From assembly GCA_016937695.1 (NCBI GenBank), contig JAFGWC010000022.1:1-49853 (forward strand): a stretch of DNA of 49,853 nucleotides, read 5' to 3'. Made by a program: the position numbers and the translations under genes. Shown in pieces: positions 1 through 39,208 of this stretch; the first letter of the stretch is position 1, and each line of letters opens with the position of its first letter. The notes beneath the pieces were generated by a model. The model had not been told where the DNA came from, searched no databases, and saw only the letters and a program-made list of their open reading frames with translations. Origin of the DNA: Bacteroidales bacterium. Lineage in GTDB: Bacteria; Bacteroidota; Bacteroidia; Bacteroidales; NBLH01.

Positions 1-19
1 AACTAACTAATTATTTATC

Positions 20-2218
20 ATGAAGAACTATTTATTAATTTTAATAATTGCCTTTTTGTTGCCAAATTTTTTAATTGGACAAGAAGATTCAACAAAAGTT
101 GATGACATGTCAGATCTTTTAGATTTATCGCTTGGAGATTTAATGAATATAGAGGTTTCAGGAGTAAGTAGATATGCACAAAATTTGTCAGACGTCCCAA
201 ATTCAATTCAGGTCATTAGTCAACAACAGATAGCAGATAGAGGCTATAATGACTTATCCGATTTATTAAAAGATGTTCAGGGATTTGATATAACTTCAAA
301 TGCAGGGCAATTTGGTGAATTTTATTCTTTTCGTGGAATTGCCGGAAATGACAGATTTTTAGTGTTAGTAAACGGGCATAAATTAAATCCAGCAAGCGGA
401 ACATATATTTCTATAGGAAATTCAATTTCAATTCGTTATGCCGAAAGAATTGAAATTATATCCGGACCGGCATCGGCAGTTTACGGAGCAGATGCATTTT
501 CAGGAATAATAAATATTGTGTTTAAAGATATAGCGTCAGAAGATAAAAACACAAACATTTCAGGATATATTAATTACGGAAGCTTAAACACTATTGACGG
601 TGCTTTTAATGCTTCTGTTAAAGTAAATAATGATTTTTCAATTAATACAAGTGCACGAATTTATAAATCAGACGGGCCTAACTTTATAGGAACTGATTCT
701 AAATATTATGATTATGACCTTATAAAAGACTATCCTTCACCTTTGACTGATAATTTTGAACAACCTACTTTTGACCATAATATTTATTTTAATGCTAAAT
801 ATAAAAATTTTTCTATTAATTATTTTCGACAACAATTTGATGAAGGAAATGCATTAAGTTTTGATCCTTTAATTTATATTTATAATAAAGATAATAAATG
901 GAAAACTTCAACAGATATTTTTTGGGCTGATTATGAAATAAAATTTAATAATGATGGAAATCTAAAATTTGATGTTAGTTATAAAAGACATATCCAAGAT
1001 AACAATACAATTTATTATAAATGGAACATACCCGGAGTATTTGACGCAGACGAAACTTACAAACAGTTTATGACAGGAAAAGATAACTCAATACAAGCGG
1101 TATTAACATATAATCAATTAATTTCAGATAAATTTCAGTTTATTGCGGGTATAGAAAATGAATATACAACAAGTGTTCCGCCTTATGCTAATGATGAAGT
1201 TCTTGGATATTCATCAAAGTATGAAGGTGAAAATGCAAAACAAATTGATGAAGAATTAACAATTACCGAAAATAGAGTTTCCGGTTTCGGACAATTTGTT
1301 TATTCACCAATTAAATATATTAATATTACTTTTGGGGCAAGATACGATTACTCAACAAGGTATAAAGGCGTTTTTAATCCTCGTGCCGGAATTATTATTT
1401 CGCCTACTAATTCAACAAAAATAAAATTTATATACGGAAGAGCTTTCCAATCGCCTTCGCTATTTGTTCAATACGAACAATGGGGTGCACCTGATATTGC
1501 ATTTATTTCAACTGCAGAAATAAGAAACAGAGATATTGATCCTAATTGGGAATTAAAAAATCAAATTGTAAATTCTTATGAAGCAAGTTTAACACAAAAA
1601 ATTGGTAAAAACCTTGAATTCAAGATAGGCGCTTTTTACAATGATTTAACAAATCTTATTGAAAGAAATTTATTTGCAGCTTATCCTGTAGACTCTGTTT
1701 ACAATAAGTACTTTGACAATTATACAAGCGGATTAAGAAATGAAAATATCGGCTCGCAAAAAATAATTGGAGGTGATTTTTCTTTAAATGCTAAAATTTC
1801 TAAAAACATTATACTGTATACGTACTATTCATATACTGATGCTGTTTCTGTTTTAAACAATGGAGATGAAACAAAAATACCTCGTATTGCAGACCATAAA
1901 GTTTGGATAGGTGTTACAGCACAAAATCTTTTTAATTATCTTACAATATCGCCTCGTTTAAGGTGGAGTAGCGATATGTATAATGCAAATGCAACTATTT
2001 TTTCGGATAATATACAGCCAGGATTTTATACTTTGGATTTGAACTTGTCTGTTAATAATTTAAGTAAATATTTTAGGATTTACGCAAATTTTGAAAACAT
2101 AACAGATGAAAAGCAAGAACATGGAGGACTTTACGACCAAACAGGTGTTTATACTGCAGTAATTCCACAACAAGGTTTTACATTCAGAGCAGGGATAGAA
2201 GTTTTCTTTAACAAATAA
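20..2218 (+). CDS. TonB-dependent outer-membrane receptor
   Basis: A 732-residue protein with an N-terminal signal peptide (hydrophobic stretch about residues 4-20, ending in IGQ). A plug domain follows (about 45-165), with the family-like lead-in LLDLSLGDLMNIEV, then VPNSIQVIS, FSFRG-type and GPASAVYGADAFSGIINI signatures. The rest is a long alternating-polarity beta-barrel region ending in aromatic strands (FRAGIEVFFNK), as in TonB receptors. It should import a bulky ligand (siderophore, cobalamin, metal chelate or glycan) across the outer membrane using TonB energy; the ligand cannot be told from sequence. There is no N-terminal carboxypeptidase-regulatory domain and no SusD partner beside it, which argues against a SusCD glycan system. 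The ATG follows a purely AT-rich leader with no Shine-Dalgarno site. Class assignment is secure; substrate is unknown. Confidence 0.9.
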   Translation: MKNYLLILIIAFLLPNFLIGQEDSTKVDDMSDLLDLSLGDLMNIEVSGVSRYAQNLSDVPNSIQVISQQQIADRGYNDLSDLLKDVQGFDITSNAGQFGEFYSFRGIAGNDRFLVLVNGHKLNPASGTYISIGNSISIRYAERIEIISGPASAVYGADAFSGIINIVFKDIASEDKNTNISGYINYGSLNTIDGAFNASVKVNNDFSINTSARIYKSDGPNFIGTDSKYYDYDLIKDYPSPLTDNFEQPTFDHNIYFNAKYKNFSINYFRQQFDEGNALSFDPLIYIYNKDNKWKTSTDIFWADYEIKFNNDGNLKFDVSYKRHIQDNNTIYYKWNIPGVFDADETYKQFMTGKDNSIQAVLTYNQLISDKFQFIAGIENEYTTSVPPYANDEVLGYSSKYEGENAKQIDEELTITENRVSGFGQFVYSPIKYINITFGARYDYSTRYKGVFNPRAGIIISPTNSTKIKFIYGRAFQSPSLFVQYEQWGAPDIAFISTAEIRNRDIDPNWELKNQIVNSYEASLTQKIGKNLEFKIGAFYNDLTNLIERNLFAAYPVDSVYNKYFDNYTSGLRNENIGSQKIIGGDFSLNAKISKNIILYTYYSYTDAVSVLNNGDETKIPRIADHKVWIGVTAQNLFNYLTISPRLRWSSDMYNANATIFSDNIQPGFYTLDLNLSVNNLSKYFRIYANFENITDEKQEHGGLYDQTGVYTAVIPQQGFTFRAGIEVFFNK

Positions 2219-29818: not shown

Positions 29819-32800
29819 ATGAAGCAATTTTTTTTATTCTTTATTTTTATTTCAATAATAATATTATTTTTTCCTAATCAGAAAGTTAATTCACAGCCAT
29901 GGCTTTATGATTTATCTGTTAAAAAGAGTTCAAAAAGCAACTTTTTTGATATACAGAAAGCCTTTGAAGATTATTGGAAGCCATATAATGTTAAAGGCGG
30001 ATATTATATTGACAGTAAAGGCGATAAACATAAAGCTGCAGGTTGGAAACAATTCAAACGCTGGGAATGGTATTGGAAATCAAGAGTAGACAATGTTACC
30101 GGCGATTTTCCTATATATTCAAAAATCGATGCGTTAAAAAAATTAGAAACATTAAAGCCTAAAAAGAGTCAGGTGAAATCAACACTTGGAAACTGGCTAG
30201 CTTTAGGACCAAGTAATGTTAATTCGCCAGATTTTGGTACAGGACGTATAAATTGCTTAACTTTTGATCCTAATAGTAATAGCAGATTTTGGGTAGGTGC
30301 ACCTGGAGGAGGAGTTTGGCGTACTGATGATAATGGTGGTGGATGGACTTGTTTAACTGATAATAACCCTGTACTTGGAGTTAGTGTTATTGAGTTACAT
30401 CCTGGATATAATGGAACAACAAATAGAACAATATTTATAGCAACTGGAGATAGAGATGCAATGGATAATCCAAGTGTTGGATTATTAAAATCAACAGATG
30501 ATGGTGCTACTTGGCAAGAAACAGGTTTTTCTGCAGGACCTGGTGAAGGAATGACAATTGGAGGACTGAAAATTAATCCTACCAACCCGGATATTATGTT
30601 AGTAGGAGCTTCCACAGGATTGTACAGAAGTACGGATGGAGGAAATACATGGACATTGAAGCAAAGCGGAAGTTTTACTGATATGGAAAGAAAACCTGGT
30701 AGCACAACAATATATTATGCTTCAACAAATGGTTGGAACCCAAAAGTTTATAAAACTATCGACGCTGGTAATACATGGACCTTAGTACGAACAATTACCG
30801 GACATTTTAGATGTGAAATAGCTGTTACAGATGCTGATCCTAATTATGTTTATATTATTACAAGCGAAAATGCAAATGATAGCGGAAACATTGAACGTTC
30901 AACAAACTCTGGTGATACTTGGACTATTATGTATGATACTAGTGATCCTAATTTATTTGGATGGCGAACTGATGGCGCTGATGATGGAGGTCAAGGTTTT
31001 TACGATATTGCAATTGCAGTTTCAAACACAAATAGAGATTATGTATATATAGGTGGTGTAAATTCTCATTTTTCAACAAATGGAGGAACATCTTTTACTG
31101 GTGTTACATGCTGGACATCTAGTTCTACATATAACAGAAATGGTTCAGCTGTAATCCATGCTGATCATCATAATGCTTATTTTCATCCTGTTACAAACAG
31201 ATTATACGATGTTAATGATGGAGGTGTTCATTATACAGATAATATTACTTTGCTTAATAATTCTACATGGACTGATATTACCAGAGGCCTTGCAAATGGT
31301 CAAATATATGGAATTGGAGTATCACAATTAAGTGCAGATGAAACAGTTGCAGGTTTTCAGGATAATGGAACAAAATTATTAGCAAGCGGAACAGCTCTTT
31401 GGTCAGATGTAAAAGGTGGAGACGGAATGCATTGTGATATAGATGTTACAACTGATGAAGTTCAATACGGAACTTATGTTGAACTACAGGTTGATAGAAC
31501 AACAAATGGCTGGACTTCAAGAGGAAGTATCAGAAATGGTGGAGGAGCTGACTGGGCAGGACCTTTAGAAGGTGATCCTTATCTGCCTGGTGTTATATAT
31601 ATTGGAACTGATGCTGTTGAAAGATACAATGGTTCTTGGTCTGATATGTCTACTTCATTAAACTCAACTTCATACTTATTAGCACTTGATGTCCATAACG
31701 ATGGAACAAACTTAGTTATTTATACTGCAGATAATACAAATTTATGGCGTTCAAATACTAGTGGAACTTCTTTTGTTAGTGTAAAAAATAATTTACCATC
31801 TAATATGGTAAAAGATATTGCAATCGATTATCTTAATCCTACAACTACAGCTTGGGTGGCATTAGGCGGATATGATGATAATAATGTCTATATGACAACT
31901 GATAATGGCGCTACCTGGACAGATATTTCTGAGGGATTACCTGAGTTGCCTTGTAATACTATCGTTCAAAACAGACAAAATACAATACAAAATGAATTAT
32001 ATGTTGGTACTGATGTGGGTGTTTATGTTAAGCTTGGAAATGCTCCTTGGCAACTATTTGGAGAAGGACTTCCAAATGTGGAGGTTTCAGATTTAGAGAT
32101 TTATTATGATTCTAATCCTGCAAACTCAAGATTAAGAGCAGCAACTTATGGACGAGGTGTATGGGAATCAGATATTTACAATCCGCCAGCTCTTGATGCA
32201 GCAATTTCTGCTGTTATTGAACCAAGTTCAGAGTACTGTGGACTTGGAGATTTCACACCTACTTTTACTCTTGCAAATATTGGAACTACTTCATTAACAA
32301 CAGCTGATATAAGTTATTCGCTTGATGGAGGCGCTAGTGTTAATCAAGCATGGTCAGGAAATCTTGCTCAAGGTGAATCTACAAATATTATATTTCCTAT
32401 TGAAAGCTTATCATATGGAACTCATGATATTGTTGTTACTGTTTCAAATACCAATGGTGCAACTGATGATGTTAGTATTAACGATATAAACCAGAAAACA
32501 TTTGAAGTATGGAATAATACTCTTCCATATACTCAAAATTTTGATGATTTTACAAATGGTGGTAATTATAGTGGTTATGGTGGAGAGAGTGTATCATTAT
32601 CAGAATGTTGGATAAATGGTGACGAAAGCGGTGTTGATTGGAGCGTAAATTCTGGCGCAACTGGTTCTTCAGGAACTGGGCCGGATACATACGGTGATCA
32701 TACATCAGGTTCTGGAAAATATTTATATACAGAAACATCCTCTGTTTATTCGAAAAGAGCTGATGTTTTAACACCAACTTTTGATTTAACAAATTACTTA

Positions 32801-35800
32801 GGTGCCAATATTTCATTTTGGTACCATATGCTTGGAACAAATATGGGTATTTTAAATGTTGATTTGCATTATGGAGGCGTTTGGCATAATAATATTACTG
32901 TTTCTTTTAATGGTGTTAGTGCTACAAGTTTAAGTGGAAATCAAGCTGATGAATGGCGTGAAGCAACTGCTGACATTTCTGTTGCTGATGGATATGATGA
33001 TGTTATTGTTAGATTGAGAGCTGAACCAACAGCATCAGATTATTCAGGCGATATGTCTATTGATGACTTTACTCTCGATGCTACTATTGCATGTACTCAA
33101 CCATCAACTCAGGCTAGTAATTTTAATGCTACACCAGATTATGATTATATTGATATCTCTTGGTCAAGAGGAACTGGTGATAATTTAATTATTTTAGCAC
33201 ATGAAGGTGCTGCTGTAAATAGTGAACCTTTGTATAGTATATCATATAGTGCTAACACTTTATTTGGATTAGGTGATGAAATTGGAGCTGGTAATTTTGT
33301 TGTTTATAATGGCACAGGAACTTTTGTCAGAGTTACAGGCTTGAATCAAGGAACTGAATATCATTTTGCAATTTATGAATATAACAGTATTGATAATTGC
33401 TATTTGACTGCAGGAATTACAGGATATAGTACAACTTTAACTTATCCGCCTCTAATTTCTGCTATAATTCCAGATAATTTTTTTGCTGATTTAGGAAAAC
33501 AACTAACAATTAAAGGTTCAAATTTTAATGGCGTTTCTTCTGTTGAATTAGGTGGAATATCAGGATCCATTTTCTCAAATGATGGCTCAACATTAACTGT
33601 AGATTTTCCTGCTGGAAATTATTCTGATAATAATTTAGTTATTACAAATTCTGGAGGTAATGATAATTTTACTTGTACTGTAAATACTAGAAATACTATA
33701 CCTGTTGGAAATGGAACAGATTCTCATTTAACAATAACAAGTGCTTTGGAAGGCTTATTTGCATGGTGGGGAACAAATTCCTTTGACGCAGAAAAAACAA
33801 TTGATGTATATTCAGGAACTTACACCGAAACTGTTACACCTAATTTAAATTTAAGTCCAACGGTTGCAAATATGCTTGTTATTAAAGCTCATACTGATGA
33901 AACACCAGTTATTAATGCTAGCACTAATGCGAATGGCGTTAATATTGGAAATTTAGATTATGTTAAATTTGAAGGATTTACTGTTTTTGGAGCTACTGAA
34001 GATAATATTTATTCGGAAGGAGATTATAATCAAATATCTTTTAACAAATGTTACGGCTCAATAACTGGGTCTGGAATTAAATTAAATTCTGCGAACAATA
34101 CATCTTTAACTAACAATTTACTTTATAATAATTATAATTACGGAATACAAATAACTGGTTCAGATAATCTTACAGTAAAAAATAATACTATTTCAGATAA
34201 TGGGCATAATTTAATTTTAGAAACTAATATTCAGTTATATTATCAGGATTTTGAAACTGATAGAAACAATTGGACTACAACAGGAGGTCATTGGAGTTTT
34301 TATAATGATGCTGCATATGCAAATTCAGGTACTTATTCTGCTATGTGTGAAAGAACTCAAAATATTCCTGATATTTTTACATATTCTAATACGATTAATA
34401 TTAGTGGGTTTGATAATATTGTTATATCATGTTGGGTTGAGGATGATAATCCTTCTGTTAATCTAGAAGCTGATGATTTTATTAAAGGTGAGTTCAGATT
34501 AGATGGAGGAGCATGGACTGAATTTTTTAGTGTTTATGATGATTTGAATACTTATACTAAATTTTCAAGTTCGCCAATTATTGGCTCATATTCAACAATT
34601 GAATTTAGATTTACAGGAGATTTGGATAATAATGAATGGTGGCAGTTGGATGATATTGAAATTCGAGGTGATGAAGCTGGAGCTAGTGGTACAGAAGGTT
34701 CTGCATTATATGTAGAATCTGGAAATTCGATAATTCTTGAAAATAATATTTTAGTTGCTAAAACAGGAACTGATTATTTAGCAATGAAAACAGAATTTGG
34801 AACTTCAATTTTATCTAATTATAATACTTATTACAAAGATGCCGGAAATACAAATCTTGTAAATTATTTGGGTACATATTATATCGATTTTATTGATTGG
34901 CCTAATGAAGGATTAGATGATTCAGAAGCAAATCCTCTTTTTGTTATTTCCGGAACAGATTTTCACCTTCAATCAACTTTTGGCTCATTTCAAGGAGGAC
35001 AATGGCCGCCTATTTCTGCAATTGGTGGTGTTTGGAATACTGATGCTTCTGATTCACCTGCAATTGATGCAGGTAATGCAGATGATTACTTTAACGAGCC
35101 ACTAATAAATGGTGATGTGATTAATATTGGTTGTTATGGAAATACCCAACAAGCATCTAAATCAGGTTTTAATAGTGGAACAGAAGGATTATGGACTGGC
35201 GCAATATCTTCGAATTGGTTTGTTTCAGGCAATTGGGATGATGGTAATGTTCCTATTGAAAATACTGATGTTGTAATACCTGTTGTTGCTCAATTACCTG
35301 TTATAAATTCAGAAGCTGTTTGTAATAATTTAATAATAAATTCTGGAGCTTCTATCACAATAGACATTGTCGGAAATCTAAAAGTTAATGGTATTTTAAC
35401 AAATAATTCAGGAATAAGCGGATTAATAATAAATTCAACAGAAATCGGCGATGGTTCTATAATTCATAATAATTCAGGAATTAATGCAACTGTAAAACGA
35501 TTTTTAGATGCGCCTGTTTCAAGTACGCAGTGGCATTATTTATCTTCACCAATTACAAATGCGCCTGTTAGTTTATTTAGTTCTGATTTTTATAAATATG
35601 ATGAAACAACTGATGATTGGTGGTCAGACGCAAATCTATACGGAAATTCTGGTTGGTTGCAGCCAACAGGAAATTTAGTTCCAACAACCGGTTACATTTT
35701 TAACAGTACTGAAATAACCAAGAATTTCGAAGGAGAACTAAATTATTCAAGCTCTAATTATGATGTAAGTGTTTTATACACAGAGCATTCTGGTGATGCA

Positions 35801-37099
35801 GCTAATGTTGAACCTTACTCCAACTTCGATGGATGGAATTTAGTGGGAAATCCTTATCCTACAAAACTAGATTGGGATGCAATAATAAAAACTAATGTTG
35901 ATGCAACAATTTATTATTACAATGATTTAACTCATAATTATGCATATTATATAGAAAATGTAGGTAGTGTTAATGGTGGAAGCAGATACATACCTTCAAT
36001 GCAGGGATTTTTTGTTAAAGCAAGTACTAATACTGGTGGAAATTTAAGTATTACACTTTTAGCAAGAGAAAATTCTGATAATTCATATTTTAAAAATTCA
36101 GATAAAAATTTAACTTATAATGTATTAAAATTGTCTGTCTTAGATAAGGATTTTAAAGATGAATTAATCATTAAATTAACTGATAATGCTAGTTTATTGT
36201 TTGATAATCAGTTAGATGCATATAAACGATTTTCATGGGATGATGAAATTCCTCAGATATTTTCTTTAAATGCAGAAAAGAATTCTTCATATTCTATTAA
36301 TTGCTTACCTCTATCTGAGAACAAGTTAATAATTCCTATTGGATTTAAATTTAGAAGCGAAGGCAAATTTATTTTGAATATTGAAGAATTAAATTTTGAT
36401 GGATTTCATGTTTTTATTGAAGATATTTTTGATAAAATATCATACAATTTAAATGAAATAAATCAGATAAAAATTGATTATAACGACGACTCAAAGATAG
36501 ATAGATACCAATTAAATATATCAAAGAATAATGCTCCTGAAGTAATGTCCGAAATTCCTAATCAGGAAATAGAATTAGGTGGCGATTTTGAGTATTCTAT
36601 TGCAGAGAACACTTTTTTTGATGCTGATTTAAATGATAAATTAAGTTTTAAAGCTGTTTTATCTAATGGTAATTCTTTACCTAAGTGGTTAAGTTTTGAT
36701 GCAAAAAGTATTAGTTTTAAAGGCGTTCCGGATGTTGAACAAACTATTGAAATTATGATAATTGCAGAAGATTTGTTAAAAGCTGCTGTTTCTTCTAATT
36801 TTAAGATTAATGTTAGTTCAGCAACGGTAATTGAAATTCCGGAAAATGAAAAATCATCATTATGTAAAATTTATCCAAATCCAAATAATGGTATATTTTA
36901 CATTGAAGTTGATAGCAAGTTTAATCTTATTCATTATGAAATTACTTCGATTAGTGGAAAATTAATTAAAAGTATGGATTTAATTAATAAAGGTACAAAC
37001 AATGTTGATATGAAAGGAATAGCAAATGGATCTTATATATTAAATATTATATTAGACAATAATATTAAAATAAAAAAATCAATAATTATTGAGTATTAA
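29819..37099 (+). CDS. Giant multidomain T9SS-secreted protein with BNR/sortilin-like propeller
   Basis: A 2426-residue secreted protein. Domains by eye: signal peptide 1-26; BNR/sortilin-like beta-propeller repeats about 123-786 with recurring STDGGNTWT, TTDNGATWT and GRGVWESDI; CARDB-like Ig domain 791-895; a jelly-roll (MAM-like) domain 901-1090 (LPYTQNFDDF ... MSIDDFTLD); FN3-like 1095-1207; IPT/TIG 1210-1290; right-handed beta-helix about 1294-1780, interrupted by a second jelly-roll at about 1471-1620 (YYQDFETDRNNW ... WQLDDIEIRG); a Bacteroidota-type extracellular region 1790-2235; a cadherin-like Ig domain about 2237-2334; and a T9SS type A sorting domain 2348-2426 (CKIYPNPNNGIFYIEV). 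It should pass the outer membrane by the T9SS and be attached or released. No peptidase triad was found; adhesion or glycan binding is inference. No T9SS machinery genes lie in the window. Confidence 0.93.
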   Translation: MKQFFLFFIFISIIILFFPNQKVNSQPWLYDLSVKKSSKSNFFDIQKAFEDYWKPYNVKGGYYIDSKGDKHKAAGWKQFKRWEWYWKSRVDNVTGDFPIYSKIDALKKLETLKPKKSQVKSTLGNWLALGPSNVNSPDFGTGRINCLTFDPNSNSRFWVGAPGGGVWRTDDNGGGWTCLTDNNPVLGVSVIELHPGYNGTTNRTIFIATGDRDAMDNPSVGLLKSTDDGATWQETGFSAGPGEGMTIGGLKINPTNPDIMLVGASTGLYRSTDGGNTWTLKQSGSFTDMERKPGSTTIYYASTNGWNPKVYKTIDAGNTWTLVRTITGHFRCEIAVTDADPNYVYIITSENANDSGNIERSTNSGDTWTIMYDTSDPNLFGWRTDGADDGGQGFYDIAIAVSNTNRDYVYIGGVNSHFSTNGGTSFTGVTCWTSSSTYNRNGSAVIHADHHNAYFHPVTNRLYDVNDGGVHYTDNITLLNNSTWTDITRGLANGQIYGIGVSQLSADETVAGFQDNGTKLLASGTALWSDVKGGDGMHCDIDVTTDEVQYGTYVELQVDRTTNGWTSRGSIRNGGGADWAGPLEGDPYLPGVIYIGTDAVERYNGSWSDMSTSLNSTSYLLALDVHNDGTNLVIYTADNTNLWRSNTSGTSFVSVKNNLPSNMVKDIAIDYLNPTTTAWVALGGYDDNNVYMTTDNGATWTDISEGLPELPCNTIVQNRQNTIQNELYVGTDVGVYVKLGNAPWQLFGEGLPNVEVSDLEIYYDSNPANSRLRAATYGRGVWESDIYNPPALDAAISAVIEPSSEYCGLGDFTPTFTLANIGTTSLTTADISYSLDGGASVNQAWSGNLAQGESTNIIFPIESLSYGTHDIVVTVSNTNGATDDVSINDINQKTFEVWNNTLPYTQNFDDFTNGGNYSGYGGESVSLSECWINGDESGVDWSVNSGATGSSGTGPDTYGDHTSGSGKYLYTETSSVYSKRADVLTPTFDLTNYLGANISFWYHMLGTNMGILNVDLHYGGVWHNNITVSFNGVSATSLSGNQADEWREATADISVADGYDDVIVRLRAEPTASDYSGDMSIDDFTLDATIACTQPSTQASNFNATPDYDYIDISWSRGTGDNLIILAHEGAAVNSEPLYSISYSANTLFGLGDEIGAGNFVVYNGTGTFVRVTGLNQGTEYHFAIYEYNSIDNCYLTAGITGYSTTLTYPPLISAIIPDNFFADLGKQLTIKGSNFNGVSSVELGGISGSIFSNDGSTLTVDFPAGNYSDNNLVITNSGGNDNFTCTVNTRNTIPVGNGTDSHLTITSALEGLFAWWGTNSFDAEKTIDVYSGTYTETVTPNLNLSPTVANMLVIKAHTDETPVINASTNANGVNIGNLDYVKFEGFTVFGATEDNIYSEGDYNQISFNKCYGSITGSGIKLNSANNTSLTNNLLYNNYNYGIQITGSDNLTVKNNTISDNGHNLILETNIQLYYQDFETDRNNWTTTGGHWSFYNDAAYANSGTYSAMCERTQNIPDIFTYSNTINISGFDNIVISCWVEDDNPSVNLEADDFIKGEFRLDGGAWTEFFSVYDDLNTYTKFSSSPIIGSYSTIEFRFTGDLDNNEWWQLDDIEIRGDEAGASGTEGSALYVESGNSIILENNILVAKTGTDYLAMKTEFGTSILSNYNTYYKDAGNTNLVNYLGTYYIDFIDWPNEGLDDSEANPLFVISGTDFHLQSTFGSFQGGQWPPISAIGGVWNTDASDSPAIDAGNADDYFNEPLINGDVINIGCYGNTQQASKSGFNSGTEGLWTGAISSNWFVSGNWDDGNVPIENTDVVIPVVAQLPVINSEAVCNNLIINSGASITIDIVGNLKVNGILTNNSGISGLIINSTEIGDGSIIHNNSGINATVKRFLDAPVSSTQWHYLSSPITNAPVSLFSSDFYKYDETTDDWWSDANLYGNSGWLQPTGNLVPTTGYIFNSTEITKNFEGELNYSSSNYDVSVLYTEHSGDAANVEPYSNFDGWNLVGNPYPTKLDWDAIIKTNVDATIYYYNDLTHNYAYYIENVGSVNGGSRYIPSMQGFFVKASTNTGGNLSITLLARENSDNSYFKNSDKNLTYNVLKLSVLDKDFKDELIIKLTDNASLLFDNQLDAYKRFSWDDEIPQIFSLNAEKNSSYSINCLPLSENKLIIPIGFKFRSEGKFILNIEELNFDGFHVFIEDIFDKISYNLNEINQIKIDYNDDSKIDRYQLNISKNNAPEVMSEIPNQEIELGGDFEYSIAENTFFDADLNDKLSFKAVLSNGNSLPKWLSFDAKSISFKGVPDVEQTIEIMIIAEDLLKAAVSSNFKINVSSATVIEIPENEKSSLCKIYPNPNNGIFYIEVDSKFNLIHYEITSISGKLIKSMDLINKGTNNVDMKGIANGSYILNIILDNNIKIKKSIIIEY

Positions 37100-37134
37100 T
37101 AAAAAACTTTAATTATTAAAATAAATTTTAATGT

Positions 37135-37152
37135 TTTATAATATATTATAAA
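37135..37152. repeat. AT-only perfect palindrome upstream of the small-RNA promoter
   Basis: TTTATAATATATTATAAA is an 18-bp perfect palindrome 36 bases after the giant gene and 5 bases before the TTG of the next promoter. It might be a weak transcript end, an UP-like element or chance in AT-rich DNA. Confidence 0.35.
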
Positions 37153-37156
37153 GGTT

Positions 37157-37185
37157 TTGTAATTCTAAATCTAATTATACTTTTG
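37157..37185 (+). promoter_or_regulatory. Strong-looking promoter of the small-RNA candidate
   Basis: TTG (37157-37159), an 18-base spacer and TACTTTTG (37178-37185) match the Bacteroidota promoter pattern in full. The start should be near 37191, with no gene before the terminator at 37246. Confidence 0.7.
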
Positions 37186-37190
37186 CAGCC

Positions 37191-37276
37191 GATTAAATTA
37201 GCATTGCTAAGTTAATTGATTAGTTAGTTTTAGGTTAAGGAAAGGAAGTGTTGTCGATTTCGGCAGCACTTTTTTT
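37191..37276 (+). ncRNA. Candidate small RNA (about 85 nt) upstream of argS
   Basis: A compact transcription unit lies between the giant gene and argS: a full-consensus promoter (37157-37185), about 85 bases with no credible reading frame, and a GC-rich intrinsic terminator (37246-37276). The 5' part can form a small hairpin TTAGC-ATT-GCTAA (37198-37210), followed by a purine-rich single-stranded stretch TTAAGGAAAGGAAG. argS has a separate -7 box downstream, so the element could be an independent small RNA. The alternative is an argS leader with an attenuator, but no T-box features or arginine-rich leader peptide are visible. I do not recognise an Rfam family. Confidence 0.55.
37246..37276 (+). 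terminator. Terminator of the small-RNA candidate
   Basis: An 11-bp stem AAGTGTTGTCG / CGGCAGCACTT with two G-U pairs and an ATTT tetraloop, followed by a T run. It is located 87 bases before argS. Confidence 0.85.
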
Positions 37277-37301: not shown

Positions 37302-37309
37302 TATCTTTG
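37302..37309 (+). promoter_or_regulatory. -7 box of argS
   Basis: TATCTTTG matches TAnnTTTG, downstream of the small-RNA terminator and 53 bases before the argS ATG. The nearest TTG (37287-37289) is too close (12-base spacer), so the -33 element is uncertain. Confidence 0.5.
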
Positions 37310-39160: not shown

Positions 39161-39208
39161 AAAAAAACGAATAGTGAATGATAATTTTACATTCACTATT
39201 CGTTTTTT
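39161..39208. terminator. Bidirectional terminator between argS and the barrel protease
   Basis: A 13-bp perfect stem CGAATAGTGAATG / CATTCACTATTCG (39168-39180 with 39190-39202) flanked by A run and T run, placed between two convergent genes. Confidence 0.9.

Follow-up and report, generated by a model that had tools for sequence, protein, structure and literature searches.

A short intergenic unit upstream of the arginyl-tRNA synthetase gene argS very probably represents a real sRNA gene, judging from its conservation. We propose that its product is a base-pairing sRNA of about 87 nt, FopS-like, present in a single copy, conserved beside argS and controlled by Cur, and we regard this full proposal as evenly balanced between right and wrong. 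The unit is located in the window, by which we mean the whole stretch of 49,853 nucleotides analysed here. It is conserved among relatives in synteny with argS, its terminator hairpin covaries, a Cur-type site precedes its promoter, and one gene of the genome, itself carrying such a site, codes for a probable Cur orthologue. The two most informative features are the unpaired core with its likeness to FopS and the Cur-type site 5′ of the promoter. Both lie outside the first-pass annotation of the region, which had described a promoter, a non-coding span with a 5′ mini-hairpin and a purine-rich middle, and a terminator.

The argS-linked unit and its conservation

The interval that contains the unit (Table 1) comprises 263 bases between argS and a 2426-aa ORF (29819-37099), which has a secretion sorting domain match at its C-terminus. 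Some of the features described in the first-pass annotation are retained. The -7 box is found at the expected place and is identical in the five genus copies, the separate -7 box of argS lies 3′ of the terminator, and the transcribed part contains no plus-strand ORF of at least 20 aa. The start of the RNA was set 5 nt past the -7 box, where position 1 of the Rfam FopS model falls in the FopS loci, and the extent obtained in this way is close to the 37191-37276 given before. The terminator is also confirmed: the segment 37240-37276 folds with -18.9 kcal/mol, where its shuffles average -5.3 (z -6.9), and none of 200 shuffles was as good. This hairpin is not in the output of a simple terminator scan of the window. 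The purine-rich middle is only partly a separate element, as some of it makes up the 5′ side of the terminator stem. We dropped the 5′ mini-hairpin as a structural part, since the segment 37188-37250 folds no better than its shuffles (z -0.54; 57/200 as good); the sequence of this hairpin also varies among the relatives. The TTG claimed at -33 is present in the window copy, but the four relatives do not have it at a similar distance.

Table 1. Features of the argS-upstream interval and related sites in the window
Feature	Position	Strand	Remarks
Candidate pairing site AACTAACTAAT	1..11	+	complementary to the core over 11 nt; weak and post hoc; at the contig start
Cur/BT4338-type near-palindrome ATGTTTTATAATAT	37131..37144	+	one departure from the published consensus core ATGTTnTAnAACAT
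sRNA promoter, -7 box TACTTTTG	37178..37185	+	sigma-ABfr type TAnnTTTG; identical in 5/5 genus copies
Predicted sRNA, about 87 nt	37190..37276	+	start predicted from where the Rfam FopS model begins in the FopS loci
Invariant 31-nt core AGTTAATTGATTAGTTAGTTTTAGGTTAAGG	37210..37240	+	mostly unpaired in the predicted fold; identical in 5/5 genus copies
Terminator hairpin and T run	37241..37276	+	stem 37241-37256 / 37261-37276
Separate -7 box TATCTTTG of argS	37302..37309	+	comparable box a short way upstream of argS in many of 60 other genomes (by eye)
argS, arginyl-tRNA synthetase, 597 aa	37363..39156	+	PF00750, PF05746, PF03485; syntenic neighbour

The core contains TTAGTTTTAGGTTAA, the FopS counterpart of which is TTAGATTTAAGGTTAA, and it is the probable seed region of the RNA. 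When the longer segment 37188-37300 of the window copy is folded, part of the core can pair with the sequence beyond the terminator. A tRNA search of the window found none, and the Rfam/Infernal scan, a check proposed in the first-pass annotation, returned no family at gathering threshold in the window. Past argS, a perfect 15-base inverted repeat with a T run (39166-39204) is located between convergent genes and is probably a two-way terminator.

The same spacer was compared among relatives, as also proposed earlier. A DNA search of 60 relatives located the unit in four of the six other genus genomes (G001, G003, G005 and G006), where it precedes argS on the argS strand at a distance of roughly 70-330 bases. 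It was not found in the genus genomes G002 and G004, which are 82% and 59% complete. Across the five copies the -7 box and the core are invariant in an alignment with a mean identity of 70%. In the hairpin the sequence changes and the pairing is kept. In a model-fitted alignment (A12), which is biased towards structure and consists of five sequences, two of them close, 98% of the cells are paired and the covariation score is 0.47, values that were not reached in 500 shuffles; two-sided changes occur at three of the 11 hairpin pairs, and as many were seen in 20 of the 500 shuffles. All slid versions of the hairpin alignment pair worse. In several MAFFT alignments the hairpin was out of place in part of the rows, and the alignment A9 was used for the model R1. 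An invariant core next to a changing but still paired hairpin is what a functional RNA predicts, and the recurrence of the unit at one place in four of the six other genus genomes indicates that it is more than a product of chance. DNA search and model R1 both give one copy in the window genome (G000). A search for 29 core bases with up to three mismatches in 295 class genomes, a sample without other members of the genus, returned the window genome alone.

Outside the genus, the argS upstream regions of 60 genomes, which represent the higher-scoring part of the 186 order genomes with an argS match, were inspected by script and by eye. The unit is present in five of them, clearly in G049 and G448 (family f44) and G013 (f8) and partially in G012 (f7) and G461 (f133), and it was not seen in the other 55. 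A further clear argS-linked unit was found in G540 (f44) by the R1 scan. Among 80 named argS loci, four have the unit, namely L215 (identical to G006), L268 (identical to G461), L275 and L283, the last two being clear. The distribution is patchy, yet it concerns one locus, with three families clear, two more partial, and two MAGs (L275 and L283). The clear copies outside the genus consist of UUUUCAUAG, then UUAGUUUUAGGGUU, then the hairpin. The arrangement UUUUCAUAG..UUAGUUUUAGGG in argS-linked terminator units is clear in G013, G049, G448, G540, L275 and L283 and partial in G012 and G461. In most of the other-genus units a TAnnTTTG box was not found close upstream. The loci L275, L283 and L090 have in common a TTAACATTTTTT-like sequence upstream of the argS-linked unit; neither a Cur-type site nor a clear TAnnTTTG box was found close to the RNA in these three. 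The R1 scan of 295 order genomes gave matches with E <= 0.01 in 25. Those with argS in the fetched locus belong to three genus genomes, the window genome included, and otherwise only to G049 and G540. The remaining R1 matches have no argS in their loci, several of them resemble gene-end terminators, and they were dropped from the family count.

Cur-type sites and the probable Cur orthologue

Cur (BT4338) is a Crp-like master regulator of carbohydrate use. Its published consensus is wwwTATGTTnTAnAACATAwww (PMC6989115 and PMC3878776). The inverted repeat used here was defined as ATGTTNTANAACAT from FopS promoters, before this consensus was met. The exact pattern ATGTTNTANAAYAT has its sole window match at the site upstream of the sRNA promoter; 0.19 matches are expected, and at least one was found in 15 of 100 shuffles. 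With respect to ATGTTNTANAACAT, four of the five genus promoters have the site with at most one mismatch and all five with at most two (dinucleotide-shuffle means 0.03 and 0.25). In each of the five promoters 33-34 nt separate the site from the -7 box, and all five deviate from the consensus at one shared right-arm base. The relaxed pattern occurs four times in 845 kb of the window genome, the window included; two occurrences are outside predicted ORFs, and one of these is the sRNA site. The combination of site and -7 box has nine matches in six genus genomes, four of which are this sRNA, and the reversed control has two. A perfect Cur-type site with a -7 box is also located ahead of similar PF01553 acyltransferase genes in G001 and G003 (L328 and L330).

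The same repeat is found in the promoters of FopS genes. Within 100 bases upstream of 30 FopS loci, one per genome, 14, 20 and 23 loci have it with no, at most one and at most two mismatches, respectively (dinucleotide-shuffle means 0.00, 0.10 and 1.32), although the loci are related and the counts are not independent events. Of these 23 sites, 19 are located 8-11 nt, three 41-42 nt and one 53 nt before the -7 box. Among 20 further FopS copies from three genomes, 12 have the site with at most two mismatches, all at 8-9 or 41-42 nt. The FopS loci (L295-L324 and L384-L403, for example L304 and L403) thus mostly show two layouts, with the site 8-11 or 41-42 nt before the box. No site with at most two mismatches was found in any of eight other-genus argS-linked units tested, nor in two Ancylomarina loci described below. 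Cur control of the argS-linked RNA, if real, would thus be a genus-level trait or would have been lost elsewhere.

The regulator itself was searched for with a CRP/FNR tree of 50 rows from 26 genomes, in which some paralogues were left out. The protein G000:C60 of the window genome falls in one cluster (support 100/99) with a single protein from G049, another from G013, and the best CRP/FNR match of each of 18 FopS-bearing genomes; in 17 of these 18 the best match is the only one at threshold. The region SREDxANLSNMTTSNAIRTLS is common to the C60 protein and its group. The C60 gene has GTGTTGTATAACAT, with one mismatch, 13 nt before its start, in agreement with the predicted autoregulation of cur (PMC3878776). 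The offset of this site from the -7 box recurs in four FopS-bearing genomes, whose sites are weaker (2-3 mismatches); several of the 18 have no good site at the cur-type gene by this test. The C60 protein is a probable Cur orthologue, placed by its site and by a tree of CRP/FNR proteins from these 26 genomes. A CRP/FNR gene of G002 with a perfect site was rejected as Cur: it is located outside the Cur clade, and the site of its G000 orthologue has three mismatches. In G002, G005 and G001 (L334, L336 and L337), a CRP/FNR gene from outside the Cur clade is preceded by a Cur-type site with 0-1 mismatch, the distance from site to -7 box being 27-28 nt, and cross-regulation is possible.

Likeness to FopS and the search for targets

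The FopS sRNAs (Rfam RF04319) of Bacteroides thetaiotaomicron bind SusC-type mRNAs by pairing close to the start codon, are found associated with the RRM-1 protein RbpB and are the reported controllers of glycan-transporter translation in gut Bacteroides; a possible transcriptional regulator of FopS, which is not named, is raised in the same paper (PMC11697453). The window copy reaches 18.7 bits with the Rfam FopS model (E 1.2 in a 291-base scan), where the cut-off is 56, so that it is below the family score. In a permissive Rfam scan of nine argS loci, FopS matches are located at the unit and on its strand in G013 (35.4 bits, E 0.033) and G049 (29.3 bits, E 0.49); the other seven loci have no FopS match at E <= 1. 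In the same scan G001 and G005 match L20_leader below its cut-off. FopS passes the Rfam cut-off in 55 of 295 order genomes, which goes beyond the Bacteroidaceae covered in the paper (PMC11697453), and G000 has no FopS match at E <= 0.001.

The model R2 was built from 23 of the 30 fetched FopS loci. On 65 argS sources it ranks G013 first (30.0 bits, E 0.0012), and at the unit it gives 20.6 to 10.9 bits for G049 and G540 (20.6), G461, G448, G006 and G003. The fourth rank of this list is taken by L102 (18.8), which is not a unit by the criteria used. On the 80 named loci, the matches at the unit are L275 (25.6), L283 (23.3), L268 (17.9) and L215 (15.2). This list is headed by L245 and L247 (both 29.8), while L246 (19.0) and L219 (18.5) precede L268, and all four are off-unit. 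The matches in L245 (54-120, minus strand) and L247 (89-156, minus strand) belong to two Ancylomarina genomes and represent a FopS-like unit that lies some 900 nt away from argS and is oppositely oriented. When R2 was run on 845 kb of the window genome, the window copy came last of the 13 matches listed (15.4 bits, E 9.8). It is therefore by way of the intermediate copies that the unit is linked to FopS, and membership in the family is not claimed.

At the level of single elements, the comparison with the FopS seed-region sequence UUUUUCAU..UUAGAUUUAAGGUUAA, which in our reading of the alignment corresponds to R1/R1′ of FopS, is mixed: UUAGUUUUAGGUUAA is present, and the UUUUCAU segment is found in G001 and G005 and missing in the window copy. 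As in FopS, an unpaired 5′ part leads into a terminator hairpin in the window RNA, which does not have the multicopy character of FopS. One RRM-1 gene is encoded in G000, and its product may bind the RNA as RbpB binds FopS.

Targets of the RNA were searched for in several ways. Duplex energies show no overall excess (mean -13.40 vs -13.02 in shuffles, sd 0.51), and complementarity of at least 10 nt is found in seven of 605 start regions compared to 8.2 in shuffles. The top five ungapped complementarities reach 33.6 vs 30.6 (sd 1.6), and 38 words were returned by the 8-mer enrichment, of which TAACTAAT occurs 13 times vs 3.8, a count reached in none of 40 permutations. Complementarity of at least 10 nt is present in two of 19 TonB-plug genes vs seven of 605 sampled genes, with a p value of 0.028 that is uncorrected and belongs to a class chosen after looking. 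One of the two is the first gene of the window (20-2218, TonB-dependent receptor), which directly follows the candidate pairing site of Table 1 and has an upstream region truncated by the end of the contig. Taken together, the duplex, ungapped, 8-mer and 10-nt tests are weak or negative, and no set of targets that convinces emerges from them. For the reverse-complemented core middle (17 bases, up to three mismatches) there are 31 genome matches vs 41 for the reversed control, and the anti-start pattern CTAAAACTAACCTATGAAAA has 19 matches in 12 genomes, three of them being the RNA genes themselves, vs 27 for the control. One CTAAAACTAACCTATGAAAA match with two mismatches, in G540, overlaps the start of a protein that by eye has a SusC-receptor-like N-terminus.

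These results have to be weighed against the possibility that the unit encodes a real sRNA with neither FopS descent nor FopS-type targets, and that the likeness, consisting of an unpaired U/A/G-rich core, UUAGGUUAA and a terminator, is a convergence in AT-rich sequence. Such an RNA could have another role, for example titration of the RRM protein. We consider this explanation rather unlikely, but it has to be reckoned with: the window copy is at background with the FopS models, UUUUAGGUUA-like stretches are seen by eye before terminators at several unrelated loci, and the target tests are weak. On the other side, the intermediate argS-linked copies outscore the window copy with the FopS models, and the Cur-type site is common to the genus and FopS promoters.

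Linkage to argS and the proposed circuit

The first-pass annotation had left two readings side by side, a stand-alone regulatory RNA and an unusual argS leader. The former is well supported, with promoter box, core and terminator conserved and argS having its own box; the latter is disfavoured. As a cis-acting leader or attenuator of argS, the hairpin would stop transcription begun at the upstream promoter, and a signal such as low charged tRNA-Arg would allow read-through into argS. The five genus copies, and those of several other families, precede argS in the same orientation, and this one-gene synteny is typical of leaders, and the pairing of part of the window core with the post-terminator sequence would also fit such a mechanism. 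However, the -7 box of argS is located after the terminator, and a comparable box is present in many genomes in which no unit was seen. There is no arginine codon in the short ORFs ahead of the terminator, no Rfam leader or T-box reaches the gathering threshold, the L20_leader matches of G001 and G005 being sub-threshold, and no unit was seen in 55 of the 60 argS upstream regions inspected from other genera. From this sequence evidence, a leader function is quite improbable in our estimate. It is least probable, to the point of being hardly tenable, that there is no RNA gene and that the unit is a conserved promoter remnant with the terminator of the upstream gene: the 2426-aa ORF would need a terminator after its end at 37099, but the 31-nt core between box and hairpin is invariant in five genomes whose alignment has 70% mean identity, and the unit is kept in four relatives whose fetched flanks (up to 1.5 kb) have no match to the upstream protein.

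We thus favour the Cur-controlled, FopS-like sRNA. The Cur orthologue would control the sRNA promoter, with either sign, and the RNA transcribed from it would end at the 3′ hairpin acting as terminator. The RNA would act in trans, with the largely unpaired 31-nt core as the seed, by pairing with the translation-initiation regions of mRNAs for exported or outer-membrane proteins. The single RRM-1 protein of the genome possibly works with or against the RNA. Carbon status would thereby be tied to the expression of envelope or transport genes, in a logic similar to that of Spot 42, and the RNA would be a divergent relative or a functional counterpart of the Bacteroides FopS sRNAs.

A wider proposal, which we put forward tentatively and with somewhat less than even confidence, is that across Bacteroidales the FopS sRNAs are Cur targets and that the argS-linked unit represents an old lineage of this circuit, with a single copy, acting on surface transporter mRNAs. 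If this is true, Cur would be the FopS regulator left unnamed in PMC11697453. No report of a link between Cur and FopS, or of a Cur site in FopS promoters, was found among the published papers listed in the literature searches. The accessible text of PMC11697453 does not contain BT4338, Crp, palindrom, inverted repeat or operator, and it names Cur once, for comparison. In the accessible text of PMC12596196 there is no FopS and in that of PMC10861873 no Cur, and neither links the two. The nearest prior statement is that of PMC10294740, according to which some B. thetaiotaomicron sRNAs raised upon carbon limitation are located near BT4338 sites; BTnc140, BTnc195 and BTnc364 were tested there. 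The presence of the Cur-type site at narrow spacing in most of the FopS promoters examined, and its presence at the argS-linked RNA, make Cur a candidate regulator that can be tested, and a BT4338 mutant is described in PMC6989115. A single-copy FopS-like RNA would also sidestep the redundancy that hampers FopS deletion work.

In enterobacteria, Spot 42 and CRP combine a Crp-family carbon regulator with an sRNA acting on uptake or catabolic mRNAs. The likeness to this system concerns the proposed logic alone, and there is no sequence relation between Spot 42 and the window RNA. The GibS sRNA of Bacteroides can be likened by description, as it is intergenic and has a conserved unpaired 5′ seed that acts at translation starts; unlike the window RNA, it has the promoter motif PM2 and two seeds (PMC7366714). 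With the Cur regulon the unit shares an operator that, apart from its one departure, fits the consensus of PMC6989115 and PMC3878776. The regulon genes given in the accessible text of these papers are sugar genes and fusA2, with no sRNA and no argS-linked RNA among them. The window RNA differs from FopS in being far below the family cut-off, in its single copy and fixed position at argS, in its length of about 87 nt vs 65-70, in having no UUUUCAU, and in the spacing of the genus Cur-type site, which is 33-34 nt before the -7 box vs 8-11 or 41-42. It resembles FopS in the sigma-ABfr -7 box, the short length, the unpaired 5′ part followed by a terminator, the UUAG.UUUA.GGUUAA stretch, the Cur-type site that is also present in many FopS promoters, and the RRM-1 gene in the genome, and some of the argS-linked copies additionally share UUUUCAU with FopS.
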